From Clostridiales bacterium (GTDB taxonomy: Bacteria > Bacillota > Clostridia > Lachnospirales > Lachnospiraceae): a stretch of 61,190 nucleotides of DNA. A model generated the notes under the pieces. It made no database searches and was not told where the DNA came from. It saw only the letters and a program-made list of their open reading frames with translations. Shown here one piece after another: positions 12,078 through 61,190 of this stretch (position 1 is its first letter; every line of letters starts with the position of its first letter). The stretch lies in NCBI GenBank assembly GCA_022778745.1, contig JALFSR010000043.1, positions 1-61,190 of the forward strand, written 5' to 3'. The position numbers and the translations under genes were made by a program.

Positions 12078-12177
12078 TCCTTTCTCCCTTTTATTTTTCA
12101 TAGAACAAGACGAAATACAATACGTGGTTCGCATGTAACGTCAAGCATTTTCATTTACTTTGTACTTTTATATCAAT

Positions 12178-12355
12178 GATACCAGAAGCAAAAGGTCATG
12201 CGTTTCATGCTTGCATGAAAAAGCATGATTTTGGAACCCGCAAAACATGAGAAAGTAGCTCGATTAGGGTGAATTTCGAATGTTTCTAGGATTGCGAGAA
12301 CACATAGTGCAGAGCAATCCGTAGGTATCATGGGGTCAAACTATCTTTTGACCCC
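12178..12355. repeat. Interspersed structured repeat, copy A
   Basis: tgataccagaagcaaaaggtcatgcgtttcatgcttgcatgaaa...ggattgcgagaacacatag...gtaggtatcatggggtcaaactatcttttgacccc; strongly matches 60901-61053. Confidence 0.85.
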
Positions 12356-12370
12356 AACATCATATCAATT

Positions 12371-16454: not shown

Positions 16455-16562
16455 TTATGATACCAAAATCAAATGATCATACACATACAAAACCATATGA
16501 CTTTAGAAACCTCAAAATACTTTTAATTCTAACACCATATTACAGCAACTAGTAGGAATGAG
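16455..16562. repeat. Decayed copy of the interspersed repeat (copy D)
   Basis: tgataccaaaatcaaatgatcat ... aacaccatattacagcaactagtaggaatgag aligns loosely to both ends of copies A/B. Confidence 0.4.
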
Positions 16563-27098: not shown

Positions 27099-27232
27099 AC
27101 CAAACGCTCCATTTTTCTAAGATTATGATCCTTTTTATTACTTTTTATCCTCACCATTTGTTTGGACATCTGCTTGATTATACCTCATAACAAAACATAT
27201 TGCAAGATTTTTTTAATTTTTGTTATACGATT

Positions 27233-27312
27233 TTGAGACATGCAAAATATGAAAAAATAACCCAATTAGGATGAATTTCAAATGTTTTAGAATTGCAGGA
27301 ACATATATGCAT
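27233..27312. repeat. Partial decayed copy of the interspersed repeat (copy C)
   Basis: gagacatgcaaaatatgaaaaaataacccaattaggatgaatttcaaatgttttagaattgcaggaacata aligns to the core of copies A/B. Confidence 0.7.
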
Positions 27313-60792: not shown

Positions 60793-60900
60793 ATGATTCT
60801 CCTTTGTCGTATTATGGAAAATTTTATTTATTTTTCTTATTTTTTAGTATATATGGAAAAAATTCAAGTTGCAAGCAATTTTGTTATAATCCAACTATTT

Positions 60901-61053
60901 GATACCAAGGTCAAAAGGTCTTGCGTTTCATGCTTGCATGAAAAAGCATAATTTTGGGACTCGCAAAACATGAGAAAGTAGCCCGATTAGGGTGAATTTC
61001 GAATGTTTCTAGGATTGCGAGAACACATAGGGCGGAGCAACCCGTAGGTATGG
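60901..61053. repeat. Interspersed structured repeat, copy B, interrupted at 3' end by an IS
   Basis: gataccaaggtcaaaaggtcttgcgtttcatgcttgcatgaaa...ggattgcgagaacacatagggcggagcaacccgtaggtatgg matches copy A. Confidence 0.88.
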
Positions 61054-61190
61054 TGTGCTACCCGTCAAGTAGACATTTTAAATATCAAAAGTTTTTTGGC
61101 TTTGGCCGCCCGTAACAGGGCGGCATTTTTATGCAGCTAATATCATTTTTTGATGAAACTCTATTGGTGTCAGCTTTCCAAGTTTTCTTT
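61054..61190 (-). mobile_element. IS3-family (IS150-like) insertion sequence, 3' end; transposase C-terminus ends at 61129
   Basis: Terminal sequence tgtgctacccgtcaagtagaca resembles IS150-group inverted repeat; reverse translation ...QRKLGKLTPIEFHQKMILAA* is a typical IS3-family OrfB C-terminus. Confidence 0.8.
61105..61130 (+). terminator. Hairpin terminator just inside the IS end
   Basis: gccgccc gtaaca gggcggc attttt. Confidence 0.7.

Follow-up and report, generated by a model that had tools for sequence, protein, structure and literature searches.

How one short sequence comes to lie, in several copies and in different states of decay, between unrelated genes of a bacterial chromosome is the question raised by a 61,190-nucleotide stretch of a Clostridiales bacterium of the family Lachnospiraceae (contig JALFSR010000043.1, positions 1 to 61,190; hereafter the window). 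An earlier note, made from the letters alone, had taken this interspersed repeat for a structured RNA element rather than a plain DNA repeat, and had named an existing Rfam entry or the termini of a transposon as grounds for doubt; both have now been found. The repeat does belong to an Rfam family with a covarying fold, RF01699 (Clostridiales-1 RNA), and in this respect the proposal stands. It also has transposon ends with target duplications, and there is an insertion sequence (IS) with identical 17-bp termini, so that the choice between RNA and DNA repeat as first drawn does not. It is very probable that each copy, about 184 bp long, is a non-autonomous miniature inverted-repeat transposable element (MITE) which has the Clostridiales-1 fold as its body, is mobilised in trans by an IS1182-related IS and spreads in this way through the genomes of gut bacteria.

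Both long copies of the window, A and C, are real and are matched full-length on the + strand by RF01699 in cmscan, at 101.8 bits (E 6.6e-22) and 91.1 bits, respectively, against a gathering cut-off of 48 bits; the covariance model built in this analysis gives them 133.4 and 123.6 bits. Weinberg et al. (2010; PMC2864571) reported Clostridiales-1 from Clostridiales and the human gut; they took it to be probably an RNA, though not a cis-regulatory one, and gave no function. The Rfam model covers the stems P1-P4 only, and the ends of the element were found by aligning copies together with their flanks. The complete element consists of imperfect terminal inverted repeats GATRYYRGGGTCAAAAG, a four-way-junction core and a right-hand hairpin, and the intact copies in this alignment all include the right-hand GGGGTCAAA hairpin and terminate in AACATC. 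The boundaries first drawn have therefore shifted, with the mobile unit of copy A running to 12361 and copy C being truncated near 61051 by another insertion sequence. The parts of copy A are the following.

12178..12361, + strand: copy A, the complete 184-bp mobile element (MITE), GATACC...AACATC, supported by target duplications and by an empty spacer in 11 relatives
12177..12330, + strand: RF01699 core of copy A, with closing stem P1, long CUUG-capped hairpin P2, tandem-GA arm P3 and arm P4, from cmscan and covariation
12170..12177: left target-site duplication ATATCAAT of copy A, an exact 8-bp direct repeat abutting the element
12362..12369: right target-site duplication ATATCAAT of copy A, an exact 8-bp direct repeat
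12178..12194, + strand: left terminal inverted repeat GATACCAGAAGCAAAAG, with three changes from the consensus GATACCAGGGTCAAAAG, from matches to the terminal-repeat pattern
12332..12355, + strand: right subterminal hairpin GGGGTCAAA...TTTGACCCC, seen in the sequence, the minimum free energy (MFE) fold and sibling copies
12345..12361, - strand: right terminal inverted repeat GATGTTGGGGTCAAAAG, with the same sequence as either end of the IS at loci L350 and L338, which are described below

One arm of the right subterminal hairpin is the right inverted repeat, and the other is a partial mirror copy of it. In the genome that holds the window (an assembly of 2.43 Mb in 109 contigs, 94% complete), the pattern GATRYYRGGGTCAAAAG has 128 matches, against 10 for a reversed control pattern. 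Exact target duplications of 7-9 bp flank 37 of the 52 copies, from eight genomes, in which both ends are defined, where shuffled flanks gave at most 7; when up to one mismatch is allowed the count is 45 of 52, against a shuffled maximum of 19. Within the window's own genome, 19 of the 22 copies with both ends carry them. Of the duplications with a clear length, 28 are 7 bp, 7 are 8 bp and 2 are 9 bp long; their consensus is ATWWWAT. The same genome also holds solo hairpins of about 36 bp, in which the two inverted repeats stand back to back. Solo elements of about 36-38 bp with facing inverted repeats only were seen at L072:3011, L074:3034, L076:8420, L082:2974 and L084:3021, some of them with apparent target duplications.

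The distribution of the copies points the same way. RF01699 has 35 matches at E <= 1 in the window's genome, 23 above the cut-off and about 12 weaker, and copies are present in 27 of 61 genomes. Members of one family, and even of one genus, differ in their counts from none to at least 38, a variation more in keeping with a mobile element than with a conserved gene. Copy A occupies the spacer between ftsH and uvrC. These two genes are adjacent in all 11 of the related species examined, and the element is in none of them; in the two closest relatives, whose spacer is too diverged for base-by-base alignment, the sequence upstream of uvrC is joined directly to the ftsH terminator hairpin at the place where the window has the insertion.

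Further, an element of the autonomous kind with the same ends exists in other genomes, of Lachnospiraceae type. The exact right-end repeat, scanned over 84,980 species genomes, returned 118 stretches, nearly all from Lachnospiraceae, and most of these were MITEs of 30-350 bp. Several contigs broke off within an IS that shares this end and holds a reading frame for a transposase, and complete IS copies came only from genomes with contigs ending in this manner. Those at L350 and L338 are 1845 bp long, with perfect 17-bp inverted repeats GATGTTGGGGTCAAAAG and a single frame of 536 amino acids, and the copy at L350 is flanked by the 7-bp target duplication TTAACAT. The transposase has the domains DUF772 and DDE_Tnp_1_6 (PF13751), both of which pass, and it is closest to the IS1182 transposases of the DDE type, the match to NCBIfam NF033551 (IS1182) being at E 1.9e-41 and 142.5 bits, below the cut-off of 270. 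IS ends and RF01699 copies co-occur in at least two genomes, G061 (7 copies) and G063 (44 copies). The features by which a MITE is recognised are thus all present: terminal inverted repeats, target-site duplication, a length of 184 bp without a transposase gene, many copies and an autonomous element with the same ends, the last in other genomes. Taken together, the target duplications, the empty orthologous site, the IS with the same ends and its co-residence indicate that RF01699 is here a MITE moved in trans. In the mechanism proposed, the DDE transposase of the IS1182-related IS would bind and cut the imperfect repeats GATACCAGGGTCAAAAG (left) and GATGTTGGGGTCAAAAG (right) in trans, and the element would insert at A+T-rich sites (ATWWWAT), duplicating 7-9 bp.

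The body of the element has a fold that covaries strongly between lineages. The + strand of copy A folds at an MFE of -66.3 kcal/mol (z = -7.2), and its complement at -54.1 kcal/mol. Three pairings of the earlier note, the GATACC/GGTATC closing stem, the TTTCATGC-TT-GCATGAAA hairpin and the hairpin GGGGTCAAA/TTTGACCCC that follows its copy A, are present in the sequence and in the MFE fold; the note's pairing of CGCAA with UUGCG has to be given up, as UUGCG sits in the last hairpin (GGAUUGC...GCAAUCC) in both the Rfam and MFE structures. The covariation for which it had proposed to look is strong. Among 34 diverse copies, 24 of the 26 predicted pairs show pairing-preserving changes on both sides. 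For 66 further copies, which were found through the IS-type end, then located by the covariance model and aligned by fitting to it, the cells with double changes number 320, against 95 in shuffles and 25-62 with the partner slid. The closing stem is paired in 94.8% of cells (at most 68.7% in shuffles), and its pairing survives complete change of sequence, as in GATGCC/GGCATC, AAAGTCC/GGACTTT, AAAGCCC/GGGCTTT and TAAGTCC/GGACTTA. Strong covariation and the retained closing stem imply that the four-way junction has been kept across lineages, presumably since copying continues from intact elements only; single copies decay afterwards.

Several observations weigh against movement by such an IS. 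Two of the three full-length IS copies lie in genomes that lack RF01699, and the genomes of L350, L338 and L355 have no RF01699 copies. The window's own 94%-complete, 109-contig assembly, when searched, had no PF13751 transposase and no pair of terminal repeats at transposon length, an absence that is weak evidence given the fragmentation of the assembly. All matches to the terminal repeat in this genome were followed in search of an autonomous copy and gave MITEs and the solo hairpins only; the same search in genome G009 gave nothing beyond MITE copies. The N-terminal fragment of the transposase had two distant matches in the 61 genomes, neither informative, and no match among plasmids and viral contigs; the PF13751 loci of relatives lack the element's ends, and phage and plasmid searches gave weak matches only. 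The left repeat of the MITE resembles the IS end less than the right repeat does. Moreover, the ends suffice to move a MITE and a core of 150 nt is not needed, so transposition alone leaves the conservation of the fold unexplained. An IS1182-related transposase now absent from the assembly would nonetheless seem to have moved the copies of the window.

Does the fold work as RNA? Mismatched pairs were scored as G-U, which is tolerated on the RNA strand, or as A-C. The ratio was 23:4 in the 34 diverse copies, which had been collected with an RNA model, and 8 to 7 in the 30 best copies from other species, where 718 of 753 cells (95%) are Watson-Crick. In the recent copies of the window's own genome, single-sided pair changes gave 16 G-U and 20 A-C, which indicates that single copies decay without strand-specific constraint; a pair-preserving change in the partial copy, read earlier as a sign of RNA, is what such unselected decay predicts. 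With three sets so different, the test was dropped as proof of an RNA strand, and the signal between lineages is ambiguous. The purine-rich internal loops that have been retained argue against simple correction of one arm by the other. These loops and a G(CUUG)C-capped hairpin, which are confined to one strand, and the ratio of 23:4, despite the way in which those copies were collected, speak against a fold that acts as DNA, in hairpins or a cruciform in single-stranded DNA at replication or transposition, with no role as RNA. Such a function, with which the almost purely Watson-Crick covarying pairs and the counts in the window's own genome agree, is somewhat unlikely.

Could Clostridiales-1 instead be a multicopy gene for a trans-acting small RNA (sRNA), its mobile features being secondary or coincidental? 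Copies in the window's genome have no common or consistent promoter upstream, and a promoter search at copy A turned up four weak matches to the consensus, of which none precedes the core on the + strand. Elsewhere, a perfect TATAAT lies 3-6 nt upstream of the core in 11 of 76 copies without detected duplications, where 0.6 were expected and the mirror position had 0. The cores concerned are given here by locus.

L111, L114, L129, L130, L135, L137, L138, L141, L148, L150, L151: cores 3-6 nt after a perfect TATAAT, candidate small-RNA transcripts

Transcription from such a box would start at P1, and these copies, having landed beside a -10 box, may be transcribed as sRNA; part of the excess could reflect a preference for insertion at such sites. 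An sRNA gene would be in keeping with this excess, with its original listing as a probable, non-cis-regulatory RNA (Weinberg et al., 2010; PMC2864571), with the strong covariation and with the better folding of the RNA strand. It is a decidedly unlikely account all the same, in view of the target duplications, the empty orthologous site, the IS partner, the lack of a consistent promoter in the window's genome and decaying copies that do not favour G-U over A-C.

The genes adjoining the copies in the window (uvrC, ftsH, a clpX-like gene, a trypsin-like protease, an MBOAT acyltransferase, a thiamine-pyrophosphate enzyme and a CLC channel) are ordinary and unrelated, and both long copies are antisense to their flanking genes. 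By heuristic open reading frames, the copies of this genome favour spacers upstream of genes (12 divergent, 2 convergent), as would a leader or insulator controlling its neighbour in cis; where both flanking genes point the same way, the RNA strand is sense in 9 cases and antisense in 4, which is not significant. Placement upstream of genes follows from the choice of A+T-rich targets, and with unrelated neighbours and antisense copies such a cis-acting role is very unlikely. The other copies in the window are the following.

60901..61051, + strand: copy C, truncated at GGTAT by another insertion sequence (foreign from about 61052), cmscan 91.1 bits
27229..27311, + strand: partial copy B, ends lost, from model R1 and alignment
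16459..16517 (approximate), + strand: very decayed copy D, recognisable in its 5' half only, from alignment

The cmscan match of copy C spans 60900-61053. The partial copy of the earlier note is real, found both by model R1, the one built in this analysis (27229-27285, E 9e-5), and by alignment (score 92 over 27229-27311, the best of 500 shuffles being 37). Its very decayed copy holds over the 5' half by alignment, with a modest score of 41 that is yet above all 500 shuffles (best 34), and was not detected by the covariance models at about 16459-16517. An insertion sequence, gtgtgctacccgtcaagtagacattttaaatatcaaaag..., interrupts copy C (window 61052-61190), and the foreign sequence gtgtgctacccgtcaagtagac at the break also abuts another MITE right end on contig C15 (L071, near 2440).

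The core shows variations elsewhere. In copies L195, L242, L252, L269, L273, L288 and L297, which come from several species, arm P4 is enlarged by a palindromic insert, CGCTCCGCTTCGGTCGGCGCTAAAC..., possibly a second small mobile repeat. Tandem arrays of 2-5 cores, with a period of about 145-150 bp and with junctions close to the loop of the long hairpin, occur at L132 (G010:C26) and L041 (G052:C6), and an array of the same kind at L166/L169-L175 (G057:C1:1032209-1032955).

Other ends are also found. A subtype in G003, G004 and G036 (L044, L045, L143-L146, L148, L150-L156) has the same core with the left junction TTAC|TATRAAAG, the right hairpin GCCCGCAAAGCGGGC and no duplication, and looks like an IS200/IS605-type vehicle; nearly all copies of the G003/G036 type have the TTAC left flank, and none of 14 Y1_Tnp loci examined as partners of the G003 subtype has both ends. 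Another subtype, in G010 (L137-L139), has the ends GAGCCAAGGGACAAATGG / GAGTTACCCGACAAATG, with the 7-bp duplication ATGAAAT at L137. It is tempting, and on present evidence unlikely, to see in the core a selfish structured module that rides on several kinds of transposon, exchanging ends, keeping its four-way fold and being transcribed where it lies beside a -10 box. The vehicles would be IS1182-like (GAT... ends, duplications), the GAGCC/GAGTT-ended subtype and the TTAC-flanked, duplication-less IS200/IS605-like subtype, and the RNA or DNA fold would then have a role in its own spread.

An RNA family of unassigned function gains in these genomes a concrete identity: it forms the body of a mobile element whose partner IS can be named. 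This identity accounts for the scattered occurrence and variable copy number of RF01699 and holds a warning for annotation, since most copies entered as sRNA genes are insertions. It also raises the question of why a four-way-junction fold persists in a MITE across many genera if the ends alone suffice for movement.

No publication linking Clostridiales-1 to a MITE or an IS was found in the open-licence literature; the RNA family itself is already known. RF01699 (Weinberg et al., 2010) shares the same core, full-length and far above cut-off, and is filed as an sRNA gene comprising P1-P4, to which the complete unit adds the right end, the inverted repeats and the target duplications. IS1182-family insertion sequences (DDE_Tnp_1_6) have the 17 bp of the right inverted repeat in identical form and a target duplication about as long, but the element is 184 bp rather than 1845 bp and has no transposase gene. 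Correia, RUP and similar bacterial MITEs are likewise short, lack a transposase and are mobilised in trans by an IS; to our knowledge, none has been described in which a compact four-way-junction core persists over many genera as the ends vary. Predicted structure is a property of the bcr1-type repeats too. The bcr1 and other repeats of the B. cereus group are intergenic, mobile, 100-400 bp long and present in tens of copies per genome (PMC6542083); in contrast to bcr1, the element described here has inverted repeats, variable duplications of 7-9 bp and a matching IS.
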